From Bacteroidetes bacterium QS_8_68_28 (GTDB taxonomy: Bacteria; Bacteroidota; Rhodothermia; Rhodothermales; Salinibacteraceae), in the NCBI GenBank assembly GCA_003022485.1, contig PXTS01000085.1, forward strand, positions 1-39,194: a stretch of DNA of 39,194 bases, written 5' to 3'. Every line of letters starts with the position of its first letter. Position 1 is the first letter of the stretch. Below, one piece after another: positions 25,485 through 36,645 of the stretch. The notes beneath the pieces were generated by a model. That model did not search any database. It saw only the letters and a list, made by a program, of their open reading frames with translations, and had not been told where the DNA came from. The translations under genes and the position numbers were made by a program.

Positions 25485-26924
25485 ATGCCTGCTGAAAACG
25501 TGGCCGAAGCTGATACCATTGCGGCCTTGGCAACCCCGCGCGGGCGGGCGGCACTGGCGGTCGTGCGCCTCAGCGGCCCGCAGGCAGTGCGCGTAGCCGA
25601 TGCGTGTCTCGAAGGCCCGGCGCTGGCGGAGGCGGACTCGCACACCGCGCACGTCGGCTTCTTTAGAGGAGCGGACGGGGAGGAGATCGACCGTGTCGTG
25701 GCGACGGTCTTTCGCGCGCCGCGCTCGGCGACGGGCGAGGATGTGGTCGAGCTCTCCTGCCACGGTGGCGACTTTGCCCCGCAGCTTATCTTGGAGCAGC
25801 TCTACGAAGCGGGCGCGCGCCCGGCAGAGCCCGGCGCGTTTACCCAGCGCGCCTTCCTCAACGGGAAGATGGACCTTGCGCAGGCCGAAGCCGTCGCCGA
25901 CCTGATCGATGCGACCAGCCGGGCGGCTCACCGCGCCTCAATGAAGCACCTGAAGGGCCGGTACTCCGACCGCCTCGCGGAGCTGCGTGAAGAACTGCTG
26001 GAGCTGTGCGCCTACATCGAGCTCGAACTCGACTTCAGCGACGAGGACGTGGACTTCGCCGACCGCGAGCGGCTCGAAGCGCTTCTCGAAGAGGCCGACG
26101 CGCTGCTGGCGGACCTCATCGGCTCCTACGCCACGGGCGAGAAGCTGCGCGACGGGGTGCGCGTCGTGATCGGCGGGCGGCCCAACGCCGGCAAGTCCAC
26201 GCTCCTCAACGCGCTGGTCGGTGACGAGCGCGCCATCACCAGTCCCACGCCCGGCACCACGCGCGACCGCGTCGAGGCCGAGGCCCAGATCGAGGGCGTG
26301 CGCTTTCGCTTCACCGACACGGCGGGCCTGCGCGTGGCCGAGGGCCAGATCGAGGCCGAGGGCGTGCGCCGCGCCGAGGAGGCCATCCGCGAGGCCGACG
26401 TGCTCTTGTACCTCTACGACCTCGCCGAGGGCCTGGCGGGCGAGGAGCGGGCCTTTCTGAACGAGCACGCACCGACGACCGGCGGCGATGCCTCCGAAAA
26501 CGGCGAAACGGGCCGCGCGGCGCTGCTCGTTGGCAACAAGGCCGACCTGCTGGACGGCGACGCCCCGACGCCCCCGACGAGCCGCGAAGCCGGGCTGCCG
26601 CACGTGTCGCTCTCGGCGCTGGAGGCCGGGCGCCACCCCGACCGGCTTGCTCCCGTCACCGATTTTCTGCGCGAGACGGTCGCCGGCGCCCTCAGCCGCG
26701 CGGAGCACTCCCCCGTGGTGATGAACCAGCGCCACCGCCGCCACCTGCGCGACGCCCGCGCCGCTGTCGAGCGCGCCCGCGAAGGATTGGCGAGCGGCCT
26801 CGGTGGCGATCTCTTGACGCTCGACCTGCGCGAAGCCCTCGACGAGATCGGCCAGATCACGGGTGAAGTGACCACCGAGGACGTGCTCGACCGAATCTTC
26901 TCGCGCTTCTGCATTGGGAAGTGA
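25485..26924 (+). CDS. mnmE: tRNA modification GTPase MnmE
   Basis: 479 aa. Works with MnmG to make cmnm5U34 in wobble positions. The formyl-THF-binding N-terminal domain begins DTIAALATPRGRAALAVVRLSG. The G domain shows G1 GRPNAGKS (231-238), TPGTTRD, DTAG (278-281) and NKAD, and the C-terminus ends in the conserved catalytic CIGK (476-479). Its length is typical. It follows yidC, as in the conserved oriC-proximal cluster of many bacteria. MnmG is not in the window. Confidence 0.97.
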   Translation: MPAENVAEADTIAALATPRGRAALAVVRLSGPQAVRVADACLEGPALAEADSHTAHVGFFRGADGEEIDRVVATVFRAPRSATGEDVVELSCHGGDFAPQLILEQLYEAGARPAEPGAFTQRAFLNGKMDLAQAEAVADLIDATSRAAHRASMKHLKGRYSDRLAELREELLELCAYIELELDFSDEDVDFADRERLEALLEEADALLADLIGSYATGEKLRDGVRVVIGGRPNAGKSTLLNALVGDERAITSPTPGTTRDRVEAEAQIEGVRFRFTDTAGLRVAEGQIEAEGVRRAEEAIREADVLLYLYDLAEGLAGEERAFLNEHAPTTGGDASENGETGRAALLVGNKADLLDGDAPTPPTSREAGLPHVSLSALEAGRHPDRLAPVTDFLRETVAGALSRAEHSPVVMNQRHRRHLRDARAAVERAREGLASGLGGDLLTLDLREALDEIGQITGEVTTEDVLDRIFSRFCIGK

Positions 26925-27058: not shown

Positions 27059-27088
27059 TTGACAAGTTCCCACTTCGGAGGCTATACT
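27059..27088 (+). promoter_or_regulatory. Housekeeping promoter of the argG leader
   Basis: TTGACA (27059-27064), 18-nt spacer, TATACT (27083-27088): six and five of six consensus bases. The expected transcription start is about 27093-27096, which puts the leader ORF's ATG (27100) only 4-7 nt into the RNA. This is the best promoter match I see in the window. Confidence 0.75.
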
Positions 27089-27099
27089 TCCGAGCAGTT

Positions 27100-27234
27100 A
27101 TGACGGTTTCCGCTCGCAATTTCACTACTCCGGTGCGCTGCACGACGACCGTGCGACGTGTCCGACTTATCCGCCCCGTGCACGGGCGAGGGGACATCGG
27201 CGCATCCGGAAAGTGTGCTTGCTACGTGACGTAG
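27100..27234 (+). CDS. Arginine-rich leader peptide of argG (predicted attenuator peptide)
   Basis: 44 codons, ATG to TAG, between the promoter and the terminator. Seven codons are Arg: 6, 13, 19, 20, 22, 25 and 30, with four in the window 19-25 (VRRVRLIR). Three of the seven are CGA, which I see rarely in neighbouring genes. The ORF has no signal or domain character and its second half overlaps the predicted antiterminator arm (27190-27203). Its use as a regulatory peptide is inferred from position (upstream of an arginine gene), Arg clustering and the competing RNA stems. It could alternatively be a structured RNA element in which the ORF is accidental. Confidence 0.65.
   Translation: MTVSARNFTTPVRCTTTVRRVRLIRPVHGRGDIGASGKCACYVT
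27158..27197 (+). promoter_or_regulatory. Predicted protector stem (segments 1:2) of the argG attenuator
   Basis: GTGTCC (27158-27163) can pair with GGACAT (27192-27197), six pairs with one G-U, enclosing a second hairpin CGCCC (27172-27176)/GGGCG (27184-27188). Segment 1 lies inside leader codons 20-22, so a ribosome stalled on the Arg cluster would prevent this stem. Confidence 0.5.
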
Positions 27235-27276
27235 AATAGACCGCACCTTCCGATTTGCCTCGAGGCGCCAGTCCCC
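27190..27276 (+). promoter_or_regulatory. Predicted antiterminator (segments 2:3) of argG
   Basis: GGGGAC (27190-27195) pairs with GTCCCC (27271-27276) and GGCGC (27199-27203) with GCGCC (27265-27269), giving 11 pairs with an ATC/A internal loop. It uses the 5' arm of the terminator, so the two structures exclude each other. Confidence 0.6.
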
Positions 27277-27305
27277 GAAAGAAAGGGACGGCGCCTTTTT
27301 CTTTT
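27263..27305 (+). terminator. Intrinsic terminator (attenuator, segments 3:4) before argG
   Basis: AGGCGCC, bulged A, GTCCC (27263-27275), 9-nt loop, GGGAC and GGCGCCT (27285-27296), then TTTTCTTTT. A 12-bp stem and T-run that ends 24 nt before the argG ATG and downstream of a promoter in the same direction, so it must be read through for argG to be expressed from that promoter. Confidence 0.85.
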
Positions 27306-27328
27306 GCCTCTTACGTTTTTCCCCTGAC

Positions 27329-28546
27329 ATGGCTATCCTCCTCGCCTTCAGCGGCGGCCTCGACACCTCGTTTTGCATTCCCTTCCTGCGCGAAACCCGC
27401 AGCGAGCCCGTTCACGCCGTCACCGTAGACACCGGCGGCGTGGCCGACGCGGATGCGCTGAAGGAGCGCGCCTTGTCCCTGGGGGCCGAAACCCATCAGC
27501 TGATCGACGCGCGCGAGGCGCTTTTCGAGGACCACCTGCGCTTTCTGATCGCCGGCAACGTGCTGCGCGGCCACGTCTACCCGCTGTGCGTGGGCGCCGA
27601 GCGTGTGGTGCAGGCGCGCGAGGTGGCAAAACGGGCCCGGCAGATGGGCGCTTCGGCCGTAGCGCACGGCTCCACGGGGGCCGGCAACGACCAGGTGCGC
27701 TTCGACGTGGCCCTGCGAGCTCTCAGTGGCGGGGCCTTTGACGTGCTCGCGCCCATCCGCGAGCAGGAGCGCTCGCGCGGGGAATCGGCGGCTTTCCTGC
27801 GCGAGCGCGGCTTCGACGTGCCCTCGAGCACGGCCGCGTACTCCGTCAACCGGGGCCTCTGGGGCACGACCGTCGGCGGGCGCGAGACGCACACCTCCCG
27901 CCAGCCGCTCCCGGAAGACGCCTACCCCGACACGACCCCGCCCTCCGAGTCCCCCGATGCCCCCCGCACGATCACGCTATCTTTCGAGGAAGGGCGCCCC
28001 ACCGCCCTCGACGGCCAGGCGCGGGCGCCCGTCCCACTCATCGAGAGGCTGGCGGCCCTCGGCGCAGAGCACGGCGTGGGCCGCGGCCTGCACACCGGCG
28101 ACACCGTGCTGGGCATCAAGGGGCGCGTGGGCTTCGAAGCCCCGGCGGCGAAAATTCTCATCGCGGCGCACCGCGAGTTGGAAAAACTCGTCCTGACGAA
28201 GTGGCAACGCTACCAGAAGGACCACCTGGCGGACTTCTACGGCACCCTCCTGCACGAGGGCCAACACTTCGACCCGGTCATGCGCGACATCGAAGCCTTT
28301 CTGGACTCCTCCCAGGAGGTCGTGACCGGCCCCGTGGACGTGGAGCTTTTCAAGGGCCGGGCGCGCGTGCTGGGCTGCGACAGCCCGTTCTCCATGATGG
28401 ACGCCGGCACGGCCGACTACGGAGAGACGCACCACGCCTGGGACGGGCGCGACGCCGAAGGATTTGCGAAGATCACCGGCCTACAACCGACGCTGGCAGG
28501 CAAGGCGCGTGGCGCGATGCGTGAGGGCGCGATGCGTGAGACGTAA
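27329..28546 (+). CDS. argG: Argininosuccinate synthase
   Basis: 405 aa. Joins citrulline and aspartate with ATP, the penultimate step of arginine synthesis. PP-loop AFSGGLDTS (6-14), then VAHGSTGAGNDQVRFD, STAAYSVNRGLWG and GVGRGLHTGDTVLGIKGRVGFEAPAA support the family. The last residues come from a 15-nt duplication (28511-28540, in frame). First structural gene of the arginine cluster and directly downstream of the predicted attenuator. Confidence 0.96.
   Translation: MAILLAFSGGLDTSFCIPFLRETRSEPVHAVTVDTGGVADADALKERALSLGAETHQLIDAREALFEDHLRFLIAGNVLRGHVYPLCVGAERVVQAREVAKRARQMGASAVAHGSTGAGNDQVRFDVALRALSGGAFDVLAPIREQERSRGESAAFLRERGFDVPSSTAAYSVNRGLWGTTVGGRETHTSRQPLPEDAYPDTTPPSESPDAPRTITLSFEEGRPTALDGQARAPVPLIERLAALGAEHGVGRGLHTGDTVLGIKGRVGFEAPAAKILIAAHRELEKLVLTKWQRYQKDHLADFYGTLLHEGQHFDPVMRDIEAFLDSSQEVVTGPVDVELFKGRARVLGCDSPFSMMDAGTADYGETHHAWDGRDAEGFAKITGLQPTLAGKARGAMREGAMRET
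28511..28540 (+). repeat. Perfect 15-nt in-frame duplication at the argG 3' end
   Basis: GGCGCGATGCGTGAG at 28511-28525 and 28526-28540. Confidence 0.92.
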
Positions 28547-28674: not shown

Positions 28675-29799
28675 ATGCCGATGCCCGACGCCCCTGCCGA
28701 CCCCGTTGCCAGCCCCGATGCCGAAACAGGCGACACCGCCCCCACCGTCGACCTGATCGCCTCCAGCGCAGCCCGCTGCGGCCTCGTCCGAGAGCGCGTG
28801 CGCCTGACCGAGAAGGTGCACGCCGAGGCGGGGTACTGCGTGGGGGTGCGCGTGCTGGAAAACAAGACCCGCTACAACGAAGTCGAGGACACCGGCGGCA
28901 CCTTTCGGACGTTGCGGCGCCCGCAGGTGCTCGTCGGAGCGCTCGGGGCACGGCAGGCGCTCAAAGGATACAGCGGCGGCGTGCCCGACCGCATCGACGT
29001 CGGCGACGAACTGCACGTGCTCAACAAGGGCGGCATCATCGGGCGCTGCTCCTCGGCACACCCGGACCTGGGGCCGCCGCTGCGGGTGAAGGTGCTGGGC
29101 GGCGTGCAGGCGTCCTCCGGCGACCGAGCGGCGTGTCTTCAAGCCCACGCCCTCCCGCCGGTGGACACGCTCACCGACTCCGCCCCGCTGGTGATGGTCA
29201 GCGGGTCCTCGATGGACACCGGCAAGACGGTGGCGGCCTGCGCGCTCATCGAGCAGCTCGCCGCGCAGGGCTGGCGCGTGGCCGCCGCCAAGCTCACCGG
29301 CGCCGCCCTCCAGCGCGACGTGCGCCGCATGGCCTCCGACGGCGCCATCGCCACGGCTACCTTCACCGATGCGGGCGTCGTCTCCTCCACCGCGTGCGAC
29401 ATGCGCCCCCGGGCCAAAGGCATTATCGCCCACCTCAGCGAGGACGCTCCGGACGGGGGCGGCCCGCCCGACGTGATCGTCATCGAACTGGGGGACGGCT
29501 TCATCGGGCCCTACGGCGTGGCCGGGCTCCTGGGCGACCGCCAGCTGCGCCACTTCACGCGCGCCCACGTCGTCACCGCCGCCGACCTGGCCGGCGCCTG
29601 GGCCGCCGACCACTTCTTCCGCGAGCGCTTCGAAGCTCCCGTCACGGCCTTTACCGGCCCCGTTACCGACAACGCCGTCGGGCGTGACTACATCGAGGAT
29701 GTGCTGGGGCCCCCGGCCCACAACGCCCTCCAGCAGCCCGAAGCGCTCGTCGAGCGGGTCGCCGAGGCGCTCGGCGCGCCGGCACCGGCCTCTTCGTAG
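28675..29799 (+). CDS. P-loop protein of unknown function in the arginine cluster (BioD/CobQ or DUF1611-like)
   Basis: 374 aa. A Walker A of the dethiobiotin synthase/CobQ type, VSGSSMDTGKTVAACALIEQ (G177, G183, K184, T185), is followed by GWRVAAAKLTGAA and, further on, VIVIELGDGFIGPYG, the likely second acidic strand. The first 170 residues contain KVHAEAGYCVGVRVLENKTRY, then KGGIIGRCSSAH and are not recognised. It lies between argG and argC, where relatives often have a GNAT N-acetyltransferase. Some DUF1611 P-loop proteins (DgcN) are reported, from memory, to N-acylate glutamate. A role as the missing first-step acyltransferase of arginine synthesis is therefore possible, but it is inference only. 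Confidence 0.6.
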   Translation: MPMPDAPADPVASPDAETGDTAPTVDLIASSAARCGLVRERVRLTEKVHAEAGYCVGVRVLENKTRYNEVEDTGGTFRTLRRPQVLVGALGARQALKGYSGGVPDRIDVGDELHVLNKGGIIGRCSSAHPDLGPPLRVKVLGGVQASSGDRAACLQAHALPPVDTLTDSAPLVMVSGSSMDTGKTVAACALIEQLAAQGWRVAAAKLTGAALQRDVRRMASDGAIATATFTDAGVVSSTACDMRPRAKGIIAHLSEDAPDGGGPPDVIVIELGDGFIGPYGVAGLLGDRQLRHFTRAHVVTAADLAGAWAADHFFRERFEAPVTAFTGPVTDNAVGRDYIEDVLGPPAHNALQQPEALVERVAEALGAPAPASS

Positions 29800-29882
29800 C
29801 CCTCCCGCGACCCGGCGTTACGCGGCGCCCTCACGCAGGCAATGCGCCTTTTTTCGCACCGCGACGATCTTCCCTCCTTCCC

Positions 29883-31004
29883 ATGAACGACCTTCCACAA
29901 AAGAAACAGGTCGCCCTGATCCACGGCGCCGGCTACGCAGGCGGCGAGCTCGTCCGCCTGCTGGGGGCGCATCCCGGCGTAGCCCTGACGGCCGTCACCA
30001 GCCGCTCGCACGCCGGGCAGCCTGTGTGGAAGGCGCATCCCTCCCTGCGCGGGCAGACGGATCTCGTTTTCGTCGAAGAAGCCGCTGCCGCCCTCCCCCC
30101 GGCGGATGCGTTGGTGACTGCCGCCGCCCACGGGGAGAGCGCCCGCGAACTGCCGCCGCTGCTCGCGAGCCGTTTCGAGGGCGCGGTGGTCGACCTGAGC
30201 GCCGATTTCCGCCTGAACGATCCGGCGCATTACCAGGCGTGGTACGACGACCCGCACCCCGCTCCCGCCCTCCTCGATACCTTCGCCTACGGCCTGCCGG
30301 AGGTCCGCGCGCCGTACGCGCCCGGCACGCGCCGCGTCGCCAATCCCGGCTGCTTCGCAACGGCCGTGGCCCTGGCGCTCTGGCCGCTGGCGCAGCATTG
30401 GCCCAGCAGCGCGCCCTTCCATCCGGCGGTCACGGCCCTCACGGGGGCCTCCGGCTCTGGCGCCCAGCCGTCGGCGGCCACGCACTTTCCCGACCGTGCC
30501 GGCAACGTGCGCGCTTACAAGGTGCTTGCTCACCAGCACGAGCCGGAGATTCTCGACGTGATGGGCCGCCCGGCAGAAATGGCCTTCACGCCTGCCTCCG
30601 GCCCGTGGACGCGCGGCATCTGGGGCACGGCCCATCTCCTGCTTCCCGACGGCTACGCTGAGGATGACGTAAATCGTTGGTTTGCCGAGTCTTACGACGC
30701 GGCTCCTTTCGTTCGGTGCTCACCCGGCGCGCTCCCGGAACTGCGCCACGCCGCACGCACGCCCTTCTGCGATCTCGGTTGGCAGGTCGAGGGAGCGAAA
30801 CTCGTCGTGGGCTTCGCGCTGGACAACCTGCTGAAAGGCGCCGCCTCGCAGGCCGTCCAGAACCTGAACCGACTGATGGACCTGCCGGAGACCATGGGGT
30901 TGCTTCCGCAGAACGGTGGACCGCAGATGGCAGGCGGCGGTCCTTCGAGACGCAAACAGGCTGGCAATCCGACGAGCGCTCACGCCGCCGACGCCGCGGC
31001 CTGA
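29883..31004 (+). CDS. argC: N-acetyl(or N-succinyl)-gamma-glutamyl-phosphate reductase
   Basis: 373 aa. Reduces the acyl phosphate made by ArgB to the semialdehyde. The Rossmann motif HGAGYAGGELVRLL (14-27), VDLSADFRL, and the active-site Cys157 in RRVANPGCFATA are clear. GASGSGAQPSAATHFPDR and the NVRAYKVLAHQHEPE segment fit, and the C-terminal part ends about 25 residues beyond the usual end in a Gly/Ala/Pro-rich tail. Same strand and order as argD, argF' and argB downstream. Confidence 0.95.
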   Translation: MNDLPQKKQVALIHGAGYAGGELVRLLGAHPGVALTAVTSRSHAGQPVWKAHPSLRGQTDLVFVEEAAAALPPADALVTAAAHGESARELPPLLASRFEGAVVDLSADFRLNDPAHYQAWYDDPHPAPALLDTFAYGLPEVRAPYAPGTRRVANPGCFATAVALALWPLAQHWPSSAPFHPAVTALTGASGSGAQPSAATHFPDRAGNVRAYKVLAHQHEPEILDVMGRPAEMAFTPASGPWTRGIWGTAHLLLPDGYAEDDVNRWFAESYDAAPFVRCSPGALPELRHAARTPFCDLGWQVEGAKLVVGFALDNLLKGAASQAVQNLNRLMDLPETMGLLPQNGGPQMAGGGPSRRKQAGNPTSAHAADAAA

Positions 31005-31054
31005 CTACTCCCGCCCCTCCCACTCCTGTCCCTCACACGCAAGCAAAGCGAGCC

Positions 31055-32245
31055 ATGACCACCCCGGAGACGATCCGCCTCGAAGACGCCTACCAGATCC
31101 CGACGTACAACAAGATGCCCGTGGCGCTGGAGCGCGGCGAAGGGTGTTACGTCTGGGACGTGGAGGGGCGCAAGTACCTCGACTTCTACGGCGGCCACTG
31201 CGTCGCGCTCCTCGGCCACTGCCCGCCGCCGGTGGTCGAGGCGGTGCAGGAGCAGGCCGCCCGGCTCGTCTTTTACTCCAACGCCGCCCACAGCCCCGTC
31301 CGCGCCCGGGCCGCCGAGCGCCTCGTGCAGATGGCTCCCGCCTCGATGGCGCAGACGTTCTTCTGCAACTCCGGCTCGGAGGCGAACGAAACGGCGCTCA
31401 AGCTGGCCCGCACGTTCACCGGCAAAAGCAGCGTCGTCGCCATGGAAGGCGGCTTCCACGGGCGCACGCTGGGAGCGCTGGCCACGACCCACGCCGAGAA
31501 GTACCGCCGCCCTTACGCCGACGTGTTGCCCGACACGCACTTCGTCCCCTTCGGCGACACCGCAGCCGTGGCCGACGTGCTCGGGGAAACGAACGACGAC
31601 GTCGCCGCCGTCCTGCTGGAACCGATCCAGAGCATCGCCGGCGTCCGCGAAGCGGCGCCCACGTACTTGCGCGAGCTGCGCGCGCTCTGCGACGCGCACG
31701 GCGCCGCCCTCATCTTCGACGAGGTGCAGACCGGCGTCGGGCGCACCGGCACTTTCTCGATCAGCGAGGCGCTCGGCGCACGACCGGACCTCATCACGAT
31801 GGCCAAGAGCCTGGGCGCGGGGATGCCCGTCAGCACAGTGCTTGTTTCCGAAGAGATTGCTGCCACCGTCGAGCCGGGCGACCAGGGCTCGACCTTCGGC
31901 GGCGGCATGATGGCGATGGCCGCACTCGATGCAACGCTCCGAACGATCGAGGAGAACGATCTGATGGCGCGGGCCGCCCCGCTTTTTTCGCGCCTCGAAG
32001 CGGCTCTCGCACCGCGCGACGCCGTGCGCGACGTGCGCGGGCGCGGCTGCCTGATCGGCGTCGAACTCCACCAGCCGGCCGCTCCTCTGCGCGCGGCGCT
32101 GCGCGAAGAAGGCGTCCTCGTCGGCGGTGCCAACTCCCCGAGGGTGCTCCGCCTGATGCCGCCGCTCACCACGCCGGACGTGGCCGTGGACACGTTCGCC
32201 GACGCGTTCGACCGCGCGCTGGCGAAAACCAAACAGAAGGCGTGA
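31055..32245 (+). CDS. argD: Acetyl(or succinyl)ornithine aminotransferase
   Basis: 396 aa. PLP-dependent class III transaminase that makes acylornithine from the semialdehyde. FCNSGSEANETALKLAR (103-119), GGFHGRTLGAL, LIFDEVQTGVGRTG (219-232) and the PLP lysine K251 in LITMAKSLGAGMP are present; QGSTFGGGMMA follows. Stop overlaps the argF' start (TGATG). The specificity for acetyl or succinyl substrate cannot be read. Confidence 0.93.
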   Translation: MTTPETIRLEDAYQIPTYNKMPVALERGEGCYVWDVEGRKYLDFYGGHCVALLGHCPPPVVEAVQEQAARLVFYSNAAHSPVRARAAERLVQMAPASMAQTFFCNSGSEANETALKLARTFTGKSSVVAMEGGFHGRTLGALATTHAEKYRRPYADVLPDTHFVPFGDTAAVADVLGETNDDVAAVLLEPIQSIAGVREAAPTYLRELRALCDAHGAALIFDEVQTGVGRTGTFSISEALGARPDLITMAKSLGAGMPVSTVLVSEEIAATVEPGDQGSTFGGGMMAMAALDATLRTIEENDLMARAAPLFSRLEAALAPRDAVRDVRGRGCLIGVELHQPAAPLRAALREEGVLVGGANSPRVLRLMPPLTTPDVAVDTFADAFDRALAKTKQKA

Positions 32246-33303
32246 TGCCCTTTCAGAAAACCTCTTCCCCCGACCTGCCCCCCGACCGAATGCCCGACCT
32301 CACGCACTGGCCCGCCGTTGACGATGCCGACTGGAAGCGCCTGCTGGCGTCCGCCCGCCGCCACCAGCGCGCAGGCCAGTCCTGGACCGACGCCGCCCAC
32401 GGCAAGAGCGCGGGGCTGCTGTTCTTCAACCCGTCGCTGCGCACGCGTTGCTCGATGGAACGGGCTGCCCACCAGCTCGGCGCGCACGCGACCTCCCTGA
32501 CGCCCGGCGAGGGCACGTGGAACTTCGCCTGGGAAGAAGGCGCGGTCATGGACGGGGCGGAGGCCGAGCACGTCCGCGACGCGCTGGGCGTGCTCTCCCG
32601 CTACTACGACGCGCTGGGCGTGCGCGTCTTCGCCTCGCTCTCCGACCGCCGGCAGGACGAAACCGACGCCCTGATGCAGACGGTAGCCCGAGCCGCGTCG
32701 GTGCCGGTCATCAACCTGGAGTCCGCCCGCTACCATCCGTGCCAGGCGCTCGGCGACGCCACGACCCTGGCCGCCCACTTCGGGAAGGACGCCCTCGCCG
32801 GGAAGCGCTTCGTGCTCTCCTGGGCGCCGCACCCGAAGGCGCTCCCGCGCGCCGTGCCGCACTCGGCCCTCCTGATGGCCGCGCGCCTGGGACTCGACGT
32901 GACCGTAGCCCGCCCAGACGGCTTCGCCCTCGACGACACGGTCATGACCCAGGCGCGTGCCTACGCCGAAGCGCACGGCACCGCCGTCACCGAGGCGAGC
33001 ACTCCCGACGCGGCGTTCGACGACGCCGACGTGATCTACGCCAAGTCGTGGGCGGGCGGCCGCGTCTACGACGACCCCGCGCGCGAGGCCCAGCAGCGCG
33101 CCTCGTGCGCCAACTGGCGCGTGACCGCCGAGCGCATGGCGCGCACCCGCCCAGGGGCGGCCTTCATGCACTGCCTGCCCGTGCGCCGCAACGTCGTCGC
33201 AGACGACGCCGTGCTCGACGGCTCGGCGTCCGTTCATCTTCAGCAAGCCGAAAACCGACTCTACGCGCAGAAGGCCATGCTGGAGCATGTGTGGGAAATA
33301 TAG
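32245..33303 (+). CDS. argF': N-acylornithine carbamoyltransferase (ArgF' type)
   Basis: 352 aa. Carbamoylates N-acetyl- or N-succinyl-ornithine rather than ornithine. Carbamoyl-phosphate site FFNPSLRTR (60-68), HPCQ (164-167), SWAPHPKALPRAVPHSALL (192-210), MHCLPVRRN (308-316). Long insertion TPGEGTWNFAWEEGAVMDG, as in the N-acyl enzymes. From memory of the literature, the residue after MDG-x-x separates N-acetyl (Glu92 in Xanthomonas) from N-succinyl (Pro90 in Bacteroides) enzymes; here it is Ala107. The AENRLYAQKAM end resembles the N-acetyl form (carboxylated Lys, K343). The gene is translationally coupled to argD. Confidence 0.9.
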   Translation: MPFQKTSSPDLPPDRMPDLTHWPAVDDADWKRLLASARRHQRAGQSWTDAAHGKSAGLLFFNPSLRTRCSMERAAHQLGAHATSLTPGEGTWNFAWEEGAVMDGAEAEHVRDALGVLSRYYDALGVRVFASLSDRRQDETDALMQTVARAASVPVINLESARYHPCQALGDATTLAAHFGKDALAGKRFVLSWAPHPKALPRAVPHSALLMAARLGLDVTVARPDGFALDDTVMTQARAYAEAHGTAVTEASTPDAAFDDADVIYAKSWAGGRVYDDPAREAQQRASCANWRVTAERMARTRPGAAFMHCLPVRRNVVADDAVLDGSASVHLQQAENRLYAQKAMLEHVWEI

Positions 33304-33340
33304 TCCCGCGCCTGCGCCACGACGGTTCTCGCAATGATGT

Positions 33341-33374
33341 CCGCCGATGAATAATATCCGCCCATGAATAACCT
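33341..33374 (+). repeat. 17-nt duplication of the argB start region
   Basis: CCGCCGATGAATAATAT (33341-33357) and CCGCCCATGAATAACCT (33358-33374), 14 of 17 identical. The first copy gives a six-codon ORF (33347-33367, containing one Arg) whose TGA overlaps the argB ATG at 33364. Confidence 0.8.
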
Positions 33375-34152
33375 GAAAGCATACGTCGTCAAAGTCGGGG
33401 GGGACGTGCTGGCGGACGCCGACGCCACCGACGCGCTGTGGCGTGGCGTGGCGCAGCTGCGCGACGAAGCGCCGGTGGTGTTCGTGCACGGCGGGGGAAC
33501 GCAGGCCACGGCGCTGGCCGAGCGCTTCGGCCACGAACCGCGCGTGGTGCAGGGCCGCCGCGTGACGACCGACCTCGACCTCGAGGTGGCCCAGTGGGCC
33601 TTGCGCGGGGCCCTCAGCACCCGCCTCGTGGCCCAGGCCGGGCAGCACGGCATGAAAGCGGTCGGGCTCTCCGGCGCCGACGGCGGGCTGCTGCGCGTCA
33701 CCAAGCGGCCGCCGCGGTCGGTGAACGGCGACCCGGTAGACTTCGGGTGGGTCGGCGACGTGGAGCGCGTCGAGCCGGGGGTGCTCCGCACGCTCCTCGA
33801 CGGCGGCCTCCTCCCCGTCGTGGCTCCGCTCGGCATTGACGAGGCAGGGCAGGTCTACAACGTCAATGCCGACACGGTGGCCTGCGCCTTGGCGGCAGCG
33901 CTGGGGGCCCGTCGCCTGCTGCTCGTCACCACTGCCGGCAGTGTCCGGCAGGCCGCCGGCACCCGCCTGTCGCACTGCGACGCTTCCACTTTCGAAGCAG
34001 GCGTCGAGGCCGGCTGGATTCGCGGCGGAATGCGCGTGAAGCTCCGTGCGGCGTTGCAGGCCTGCGAAGACGGGGTGGACGAAGCCCTCGTCCTCGGGCC
34101 CGCTGACCTCGTCGCTTGCGAAGACGCCACGCGCGTGGCGCCGGAGCGATAG
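33364..34152 (+). CDS. argB: Acylglutamate kinase
   Basis: 262 aa. Phosphorylates N-acetyl (or N-succinyl) glutamate. Amino-acid kinase fold: YVVKVGGDVL (7-16), VVFVHGGGTQA, the substrate-binding RRVTT and VGLSGADGGLL, VNADTVACALAAALGA. The N-terminal arm that carries arginine feedback in some families is absent. Sixty nt after argF', with a duplicated start region upstream. Confidence 0.92.
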   Translation: MNNLKAYVVKVGGDVLADADATDALWRGVAQLRDEAPVVFVHGGGTQATALAERFGHEPRVVQGRRVTTDLDLEVAQWALRGALSTRLVAQAGQHGMKAVGLSGADGGLLRVTKRPPRSVNGDPVDFGWVGDVERVEPGVLRTLLDGGLLPVVAPLGIDEAGQVYNVNADTVACALAAALGARRLLLVTTAGSVRQAAGTRLSHCDASTFEAGVEAGWIRGGMRVKLRAALQACEDGVDEALVLGPADLVACEDATRVAPER

Positions 34153-34198
34153 TTTCGCTTCCATTCACGCGGCTTCCCTTCCAGCCTTCCATGCCTCG

Positions 34199-35287
34199 GT
34201 GCCCCAACGCGAAGCAGTTTCCCTCCTGAAGAACCTCGCGGGGTTCCCCTCCCTCAGCGGCGAGGAGTGTGCCGTGGCCGACTTCGTCGAGGAGTACGTC
34301 CGCTCTGCTGAAGCGCCTGTGCGCGTCGACCGCGTGGACGATAACGTGTACTTCTCGCTCGGCCACGGTTCGGACCGGCTCCTCCTCTGCTCCCACCTCG
34401 ACGTGGTCCCGCCCTCCACCGGCCATCCGTATGATCCTTTCACTCCCACCGAGGCGGCCGGGCAGCTCTACGGGCGTGGCACCGTCGACGCCAAAGCCAG
34501 TGGAGCTGCCATGACGACGGCCCTTCTGGCGCTGGCGCGCGAGGGCTACGATCCGCCCAGTGGTCGGCTCATCGTGGCGCTCACCGCCTGCGAGGAAACG
34601 GGCGGCGATTACAACGGGCTGCAAGCGCTACGCCCCCACCTACCGGACCTCGGGGCGGCCGTCGTCGGTGAGCCTACGTCGCTGGCGCCGTGCGTAGCCC
34701 AGAAAGGGCTGCTCGTCCTGAGAGCTCGCGCGGACGGCCGGCCGGCCCACGCCGCCCGTGCCCACCTCGGCGAAAACGCCATTCTGCGAGCGGCCCGTGA
34801 CCTGCGCCGGCTCGAATCCTTCGCCCTGGACCGCGAGGATCCCTTCCTCGGCGCCCCAACCATCAACGTGACCATCATCGAGGGCGGCTCCGCGCGCAAC
34901 GTCGTTCCCGGCGGTTGCACCTTCACACTCGACATCCGCTCCACCCCCGCCTACACGCACGAAGAGATCATCGCCGAGATCGCGGCGCATCTCGAATCGG
35001 ACGTGGAGGTGCACAGCAAACGCCTGGTGCCCGTCAGCACGCCGCCGGAGGCGCGCGTCGTAGAGGCTGCCCGCCGCGCGCTTCCCGCCGGCGCCGAGCC
35101 GTTTGGCTCCCCGACCGCCTCGGACTGGGTCTTTCTCCAGGACGTGCCGGCCGTCAAGCTCGGTCCGGGCGACAGCACACGCTCCCATACCGCTGAGGAG
35201 CACATCGCTCTGTCCGAAGTCGAGCGCGCAACGGACGTGTACGCGGAGCTGGCGAAAGCGTACTTTCGCTTGAAACGTGAGGCGTAA
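34199..35287 (+). CDS. argE: M20-family N-acylcitrulline (or acylornithine) deacylase
   Basis: 362 aa from a GTG at 34199; an ATG at 34191 is in another frame, and the in-frame upstream reading is the shadow of argB. M20 zinc peptidase motifs: LLCSHLDVVPPS (first ligands), GRGTVDAKASGAA, TACEETGGDYN and VGEPTSLAPC, then SPTASDWVF near the C-terminus. In the N-acyl pathway the enzyme removes the acyl group from citrulline after ArgF', releasing citrulline for ArgG. It lies between argB and argH in the same direction, which fits this role better than a peptidase. Confidence 0.88.
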   Translation: MPQREAVSLLKNLAGFPSLSGEECAVADFVEEYVRSAEAPVRVDRVDDNVYFSLGHGSDRLLLCSHLDVVPPSTGHPYDPFTPTEAAGQLYGRGTVDAKASGAAMTTALLALAREGYDPPSGRLIVALTACEETGGDYNGLQALRPHLPDLGAAVVGEPTSLAPCVAQKGLLVLRARADGRPAHAARAHLGENAILRAARDLRRLESFALDREDPFLGAPTINVTIIEGGSARNVVPGGCTFTLDIRSTPAYTHEEIIAEIAAHLESDVEVHSKRLVPVSTPPEARVVEAARRALPAGAEPFGSPTASDWVFLQDVPAVKLGPGDSTRSHTAEEHIALSEVERATDVYAELAKAYFRLKREA

Positions 35288-35309
35288 CACGAACCACACA
35301 ACACGAACC
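35286..35309 (+). repeat. Leader repeat before argH: 10-mer AACACGAACC twice, 4-nt spacer
   Basis: AACACGAACC at 35286-35295 and 35300-35309 with ACAC between (14-nt period), 13 nt before the argH ATG. Same architecture as 205-229 and 28641-28665 with a different 10-mer. Confidence 0.85.
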
Positions 35310-35322
35310 CCACACCTGTCCC

Positions 35323-36645
35323 ATGCCCCCCGACGAGCAACCCCTCCTCTGGCAAAAGGACACGCAAACCGACGACTGGACCACCCGCTTCACCGTCGGC
35401 GACGATCCCCAGTGGGACACCCTGCTTCTGCCCTACGACATCGCAGCTACCCGCGCGCACGCCTGGGCGCTTTCCGAAATCGACGTGCTCACCGAAACGG
35501 AGCGCGCGCAAGTCGAGGACACCCTCGACGCATTGCGGGGCGAGGTGCGCGCCGGCAACGTCACCGTAACACCTTCAGACGAGGACTGTCACACCGTCAT
35601 CGAGCACTTTCTGACCGAGCGGCTGGGCGAGACGGGCCGCAAGATCCACGCGGGCCGCTCGCGCAATGACCAGGTGCTCGTGGCCGTGCGCCTGTTTTTG
35701 CGCGAGAAGCTGCGCAAGGTGGGGCGCCAGGTGGCGGCCGCCGCCGAGGCGCTCTGCACGCTCGGCGAGCGCCACGCCGGCGACCTGATGCCCGGCTACA
35801 CGCACCTGCAGCGCGCGATGCCGACGACGGCGGGCCTCTGGGCGCTGGGCTACGCCGAAGTCCTGGCGGCCGACCTGGAGACGCTCCGTTCCGCCTGCCG
35901 CCAGGTCAACGTCTCCCCCTGGGGCAGCGCGGCCGGCTACGGCGTGCCGCACCTGAACTTGCCGCGCCGTGCCGTCGCCGAGCGGCTGGGCTTTCGCGCC
36001 GTGCAAACCCACGCCCCCGTCGCTCAGCTCACGCGCGGAAAACTGGAACTCGGAGCCGTGCATGCGCTCGTGCAGGTCGCCGCCACCCTCAACCGCTTCG
36101 CCGCCGACCTCTCACTCTTCGCCACGGCGGAGTTCGATTTCGTGCACATGCCCGACGCGCTCACCACCGGCAGCAGCATCATGCCGCAAAAGCACAATCC
36201 CGATGTGGCCGAACTTACCCGCGCTACCTACCACCGCCTTACCGCCGAGATGCAACTGCTCCAGACGCTCCCGGCCAATCTGCCCTCCGGCTACCACCGC
36301 GACCTCCAGAGCACGAAAGCCGCGACGATGAAGAGCATCCAGTTGACTGAAGACCTGCTCGAAGCCGCCCGCCGCCTCGCCGAGGGCGTGACGTTCAACA
36401 CAGAAGCCATGCACGCGGCCTGCACGCCCGAGCTCTTCGCCACCAGCGAGGCGCTCGGGCGCGTGCAGCGTGGTGTTCCCTTCCGCACCGCCTACCGCAA
36501 CGTGGCCGGTGCACTCAACACGCTGAGTTCGCCTGATGCGCCGGAGGCCCTGTCCGTCTACCGAACAGACGGCACGCCCGGCCAGGGACGCCCCGACGCC
36601 ATTCGCGACCAGCTGGCCGATCATGCGACCTGGACGGAACAATGA
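35323..36645 (+). CDS. argH: Argininosuccinate lyase
   Basis: 440 aa. Splits argininosuccinate to arginine and fumarate. KIHAGRSRNDQVLVAVRLF, PGYTHLQRAMPTTAGLWAL and the fumarase/lyase signature GSSIMPQKHNPDVAEL are present. The long HxTPSDEDCHTVIEHFL segment near residue 85 also fits. Last gene of the arginine cluster; a very short ORF (36642-36740) overlaps its stop and is probably not a gene. Confidence 0.97.
   Translation: MPPDEQPLLWQKDTQTDDWTTRFTVGDDPQWDTLLLPYDIAATRAHAWALSEIDVLTETERAQVEDTLDALRGEVRAGNVTVTPSDEDCHTVIEHFLTERLGETGRKIHAGRSRNDQVLVAVRLFLREKLRKVGRQVAAAAEALCTLGERHAGDLMPGYTHLQRAMPTTAGLWALGYAEVLAADLETLRSACRQVNVSPWGSAAGYGVPHLNLPRRAVAERLGFRAVQTHAPVAQLTRGKLELGAVHALVQVAATLNRFAADLSLFATAEFDFVHMPDALTTGSSIMPQKHNPDVAELTRATYHRLTAEMQLLQTLPANLPSGYHRDLQSTKAATMKSIQLTEDLLEAARRLAEGVTFNTEAMHAACTPELFATSEALGRVQRGVPFRTAYRNVAGALNTLSSPDAPEALSVYRTDGTPGQGRPDAIRDQLADHATWTEQ

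Follow-up and report, generated by a model that had tools for sequence, protein, structure and literature searches.

A predicted arginine-sensing leader-peptide attenuator upstream of the argG operon in Rhodothermales

In the window, by which we mean the whole 39,194-nt stretch analysed and not the attenuator alone, mnmE ends at position 26924 and argG starts at 27329, and the gap between these genes is filled by the parts of a putative attenuator, all on the forward strand. A sigma-70-like promoter (27059-27088) is made up of a TTGACA box (27059-27064), an 18-nt spacer, and a TATACT box (27083-27088); many relatives share this kind of promoter and its distance from the leader ATG. At 27100, 11 nt after the -10 box, lies the ATG of a 44-codon leader ORF (27100-27234) that ends in TAG (27232-27234) and has Arg-rich orthologues in other genomes. 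Seven of its codons specify Arg (codons 6, 13, 19, 20, 22, 25, and 30), and codons 19-25 (27154-27174; CGA CGT GTC CGA CTT ATC CGC) form the cluster that is the predicted stall site. Farther downstream, the antiterminator 5' segment GGGGACATCGGCGC (27190-27203) can pair with 27263-27276. The intrinsic terminator (27262-27304) comprises a GC-rich hairpin (27262-27297, about -23 kcal/mol), whose left arm doubles as the antiterminator 3' segment, and a T-run that extends to about 27304 and stops some 24 nt short of the argG ATG. The first-pass annotation had placed a promoter, a 44-codon ORF with seven Arg codons, a segment capable of antitermination, and an intrinsic terminator in this gap, and the sequence bears out each of these placements, along with the complementarity that had been drawn for the protector, antiterminator, and terminator stems.

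The first structural gene behind the leader is argG (27329-28546, forward strand), which encodes argininosuccinate synthase (Pfam PF00764/PF20979; TIGR00032 over its cut-off). On the same strand, within 28675-36645, follow a conserved gene of unknown function, argC, argD, an argF-like gene (a name that rests on its sequence only), argB, an argE-like gene (M20), and argH. The run from argG to argH is probably one operon, with co-transcription inferred from gene order and spacing. The gene between argG and argC (28675-29799, forward strand) encodes 374 amino acids and is also the neighbour of argG in most leader-bearing relatives, with 50-60% identity; no Pfam or NCBIfam family matched it above the cut-off, and only a weak P-loop match was found.

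Among 109 Rhodothermales genomes, argG was found in 90, and 88 upstream regions were readable, two of them in less complete genomes that came out of the family search. An Arg-rich short ORF is present in 68 of these regions, across 13 families, and starts about 140-370 nt before argG. Typical leader peptides are MTRQPTLIAPTTRRRARRVRRLH..., MTTQTVHTTRARRRARRERRIRTR..., MQPVRPIRPVRRPRRPRGGG..., and MIISAHSTTSLRRRIR...; a common pattern of the cluster is RRRxRRxRR, and Arg accounts for 22.9% of the residues across all leaders. When each genus was represented by a single genome, ATG-initiated ORFs with at least six Arg in 14 codons occurred in 23 of 29 upstream regions, as opposed to 2% of Markov-simulated upstream sequences, although these 29 genera had been preselected for at least four Arg in 14 codons. 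Of 59 cases that scored well, 37 have the end of a sigma-70-like -10 box 7-11 nt upstream of the leader ATG. If transcription began 6-8 nt past this box, the untranslated 5' stretch would be just a few bases long, an inference from consensus matches without a mapped 5' end. Beyond the order, a sample of 12 genomes from families f17-f21 of the class showed the leader in 11, and leaders in AT-rich genomes of these families use a different mix of Arg codons.

The leader is absent from 20 of the 88 regions, namely those of all 16 genomes of family f3 (G028-G043), two genomes of genus g41, G052, and G049. In family f3, argG-argC stands without a leader, terminator, or ArgR, and in G052 argG lies at an unrelated genomic place. 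At one further locus (L102 in G210), an ORF and a terminator occupy the usual position with almost no Arg codons; this is possibly a degenerate or retuned leader. No Rfam family scored above its gathering score for the leader, and there were sub-threshold matches only. It had been proposed at the outset that orthologous leaders lacking the ORF or the Arg cluster would refute the idea of an arginine attenuator. This did not come to pass, as both are retained in the 68 regions and in the majority of the class's other families.

Automatic detection found a hairpin and T-run behind 67 of the 68 leaders, and, when genera are compared, all 11 loop-proximal positions of the terminator stem are occupied by several kinds of base pair. 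The segment 3' of the Arg cluster looks like the right arm of the terminator and is able to pair with the left arm. Examples besides that of the window are GGAACCGGCGCATCCTGTC in family f11 and GAGAGCTGGCGCT in G007. An earlier search of whole leaders for antiterminators, based on mononucleotide shuffles, gave mixed z-scores in GC-rich sequence, and a swap test was used instead. Here, the energy of each leader's own antiterminator was set against that obtained with left arms permuted among 29 genera, which avoids a circular choice of the best pairing. Own pairing averaged -13.2 kcal/mol versus -11.6 kcal/mol when permuted (z -4.2), and none of 20,000 permutations was as good. There was no significant effect in the control segments, which were the 60 nt before the cluster (z -0.4), the 60 nt farther upstream (z -1.5), and the cluster itself (z +0.5). 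Antiterminator pairing is strong in families f1, f2, f10, and f11 and weak in f4, f5, f6, part of f8, f12, and f13. A check of the stems for covariation had been suggested; the terminator stem proved to be compensated, and from genus to genus the antiterminator changes in step with the left arm of the terminator, as judged by a permutation test and not by a covariance model.

We interpret the leader as, very probably, a ribosome-mediated transcription attenuator that senses the supply of arginyl-tRNA and controls the argG-led arginine operon. As a prediction this is well supported at the level of sequence, by the ORF, the Arg cluster, the terminator, the co-varying antiterminator, the conservation of the leader, and the absence of ArgR. 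Leader translation, stalling, the response to arginine, and co-transcription of the operon are inferred, with no data on expression, 5' ends, or ribosomes behind them. In the proposed mechanism, RNA polymerase would start a few bases before the leader ATG, with a ribosome trailing behind. With ample charged tRNA-Arg, the ribosome would clear the Arg cluster and get to the stop codon, where it would disfavour the antiterminator and the terminator would form. When arginine is short, the ribosome would stall on the Arg codons, of which many are CGA, so that the next segment stays available for pairing with the left arm of the terminator before the right arm has been made. Once the antiterminator had formed, transcription would run on into argG.

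We simulated folding of RNA ending before the right arm, taking as the stalled value the mean over ribosomes on the Arg codons of the cluster. On average, pairing between the left arm and the antiterminator region had a probability of 0.36 without a ribosome; the value was 0.71 with a stalled ribosome and 0.21 when the ribosome sat at the stop codon (Wilcoxon p 6e-8 and 2e-9). With swapped left arms the stalled value was 0.58, so part of the stalling effect is generic, but own arms were higher (p 2e-4). In the complete RNA at equilibrium, the terminator is nearly always preferred; consequently, the switch must be kinetic. In several relatives, G011 and G022 among them, the antiterminator rises from 0.00-0.01 without a ribosome to 0.90-0.95 on stalling, although the per-genome simulation behind these figures takes the maximum over stall positions and is biased upward. 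In this per-genome simulation, the antiterminator of the window reaches 0.84 without a ribosome, 0.84 with a stalled ribosome, and 0.42 with a ribosome at the stop codon. In RNA that stops short of the right arm, 27190-27203 pairs with 27263-27276 with a probability of 0.79. The first-pass annotation had also invoked a 6-bp protector stem (27158-27163/27192-27197). These segments are complementary, yet the predicted probability of the stem in the window is only 0.001, and, with the antiterminator at 0.84 in the absence of a ribosome, the window copy is without a clear protector. Of the switching behaviour that had been proposed, the antiterminator forming with a stalled ribosome and less so with a ribosome at the stop codon agrees with the simulated means, whereas termination without a ribosome is not borne out by the simulation for the window, although it is for several relatives. 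Apart from this point and the protector stem, the interpretation as an arginine attenuator is supported.

The Arg codons themselves speak to what is being sensed. CGA accounts for 228 of 512 leader Arg codons (45%); the corresponding counts are 9 of 221 (4%) in the genes of the window and 10 of 118 in a set of six argG genes. Inosine-containing tRNA-Arg decodes this codon poorly in most bacteria (the tRNAs of these genomes were not looked at). Comparison within genera shows 88% conservation for Arg and 68% for the other leader residues, and codon differences are nonsynonymous in 313 cases versus synonymous in 103. The leader comparison revealed no conserved peptide sequence beyond Arg of the kind expected of an arrest peptide. 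Since the Arg codons are kept while the remaining peptide drifts, codon sensing fits better than a peptide motif. This matters for the possibility that the nascent peptide arrests the ribosome, as in the fungal arginine attenuator peptide or bacterial SpeFL, with free arginine or a related metabolite as the ligand and a stop in the exit tunnel in place of sensing of tRNA-Arg charging. Such arrest could be imagined for a peptide that is Arg-rich and strongly basic and whose cluster shows some sequence similarity within genera. However, we consider it very unlikely given the drift of the non-Arg residues and the variation of the cluster pattern between families, and because stalling at high arginine would raise argG expression, which is the wrong direction. 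There is similarly little to be said for a general sensor of slow decoding, which would respond to CGA, a polybasic stretch, antibiotics, or the supply of inosine-tRNA and not to arginine as such. The strong CGA bias would suit it, but the leader stands before the arginine operon in all families, even where its Arg codons are CGC or CGT, and CGA is only one of several Arg codons used. Attenuation governed by arginyl-tRNA supply remains the preferred reading. It is hardly credible that the terminator is an ordinary one belonging to a short transcript of no relation to the operon, that the ORF arose by chance, and that read-through into the operon is constitutive. High GC yields many ORFs and stems and the protector of the window is unsupported, but a chance ORF was rejected on the grounds of order-wide conservation, the recurrence of the terminator, and the co-variation found on swapping arms.

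Arginine synthesis in bacteria is known mainly as a pathway repressed by ArgR. In profile searches, 107 of the 109 Rhodothermales genomes and 217 of 219 from the class gave no match to PF01316 (ArgR), and no PF01316 was found in the source genome (G000, 62% complete); the same search was positive in 9 of 14 control genomes. Matches to PF01316 in G045 were rejected as ArgR, as they sit in a transposase-like gene present five times. The only genuine ArgR in the order is that of G049, which is complete and has both Pfam domains. Only a few bases separate the end of its gene (L089:238-690) from the atypical argG (52% identity) that follows, and there is no leader; the argR-argG pair is apparently an acquired unit that replaced the attenuator. 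That one member of the order carries argR directly before argG could be taken to mean that a DNA-binding arginine repressor controls the operon and the leader is irrelevant, but this is scarcely tenable with PF01316, and thus the ArgR family at least, missing from nearly all other genomes while detectable in controls. ArgR sites that alone explained control had been named as something that would weaken the idea of attenuation; ArgR is nearly absent.

Other parts of the phylum may hold a second leader architecture. In the Balneolaceae (family f16; L142, L143, L145, and L146), the arg operon opens with a GNAT gene (N-acetylglutamate-synthase-like) followed by argG, and upstream of the GNAT gene lies a short Arg-rich ORF ending in RRIPRRR or RRALPGS before its stop codon (e.g., L143:1276-1341). 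No obvious intrinsic terminator was seen with this ORF. In a flavobacteria-like family (f31; L152, L153, L167, L173-L177, L182, and L183), short ORFs with RRP or a similar ending (CGTCGCCCGTAA) precede a GNAT-argG operon, often with GAACTTAGGTGAGTCCGGTTC downstream, and are possibly a second type of arginine leader. Arg-codon leader ORFs might, then, replace ArgR in much of the phylum in at least two architectures, one with a terminator and antiterminator in Rhodothermales and relatives, where translation would start almost at the RNA 5' end, and one without an obvious intrinsic terminator before GNAT-argG in Balneolaceae and the flavobacteria-like family. We regard the case for this broader proposal as evenly balanced.

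The first-pass annotation was aware of no described bacterial arginine leader peptide of the attenuator type, and full-text searches of the open-access literature likewise found no description of an attenuator of a bacterial arginine operon (subscription papers were mostly outside their scope). The part of a survey of attenuators in Actinobacteria that was available reports no arginine case (PMC1262725). While the mechanism is known, its specificity for arginine, its class-wide use in a lineage without ArgR, and the near-leaderless start appear to be new. A whole ArgR-less class seems to apply the attenuation logic of trp and his to arginine, which would add arginine to the amino acids under leader-peptide attenuation and offers a testable answer to how arginine is regulated in bacteria without ArgR. 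The leaders are also a natural experiment on how CGA decoding bears on attenuation, and they suggest that attenuation can operate with translation starting nearly at the RNA 5' end, and G049 looks like a natural replacement.

Leader-peptide attenuators are established for trp, his, leu, ilv, thr, and phe. The fungal arginine attenuator peptide (arg-2/CPA1) resembles the Rhodothermales leader in being a short upstream ORF that controls an arginine-biosynthetic gene, but it is eukaryotic, has a conserved peptide, stalls at high arginine, and blocks translation. Two bacterial Arg-codon leaders have experimental support. In Salmonella, orf34/SpeFL before speF likewise has consecutive Arg codons in a short ORF, and pausing at low arginine alters mRNA structure and raises expression (PMC6386406). 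However, this gammaproteobacterial leader has two Arg codons, serves polyamine synthesis, and acts via Rho, RNase G, and access to the ribosome-binding site, with no intrinsic terminator described (PMC6386406). In Staphylococcus aureus, rbfL before rbf also senses arginine limitation through Arg codons in a short upstream ORF, but stalling at its rare AGG/AGA codons blocks translation initiation of a biofilm regulator and represses instead of inducing, the target is not arginine synthesis, and no intrinsic terminator is described (PMC13009471). Compared with the ribosome-mediated attenuators of the trp, his, leu, thr, ilv, and phe operons, including those of Actinobacteria (PMC1262725), the Rhodothermales leader differs in its use of arginine, in an ATG that most members have 7-11 nt past the -10 box, in the lack of a clear protector in the window, and in a lineage without ArgR. 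Like them, it has a short leader ORF in which codons for the end product abound, located before the first gene of the matching operon, and an antiterminator that excludes an intrinsic terminator. Kinetic switching is likewise common to the Rhodothermales leader and known attenuators.
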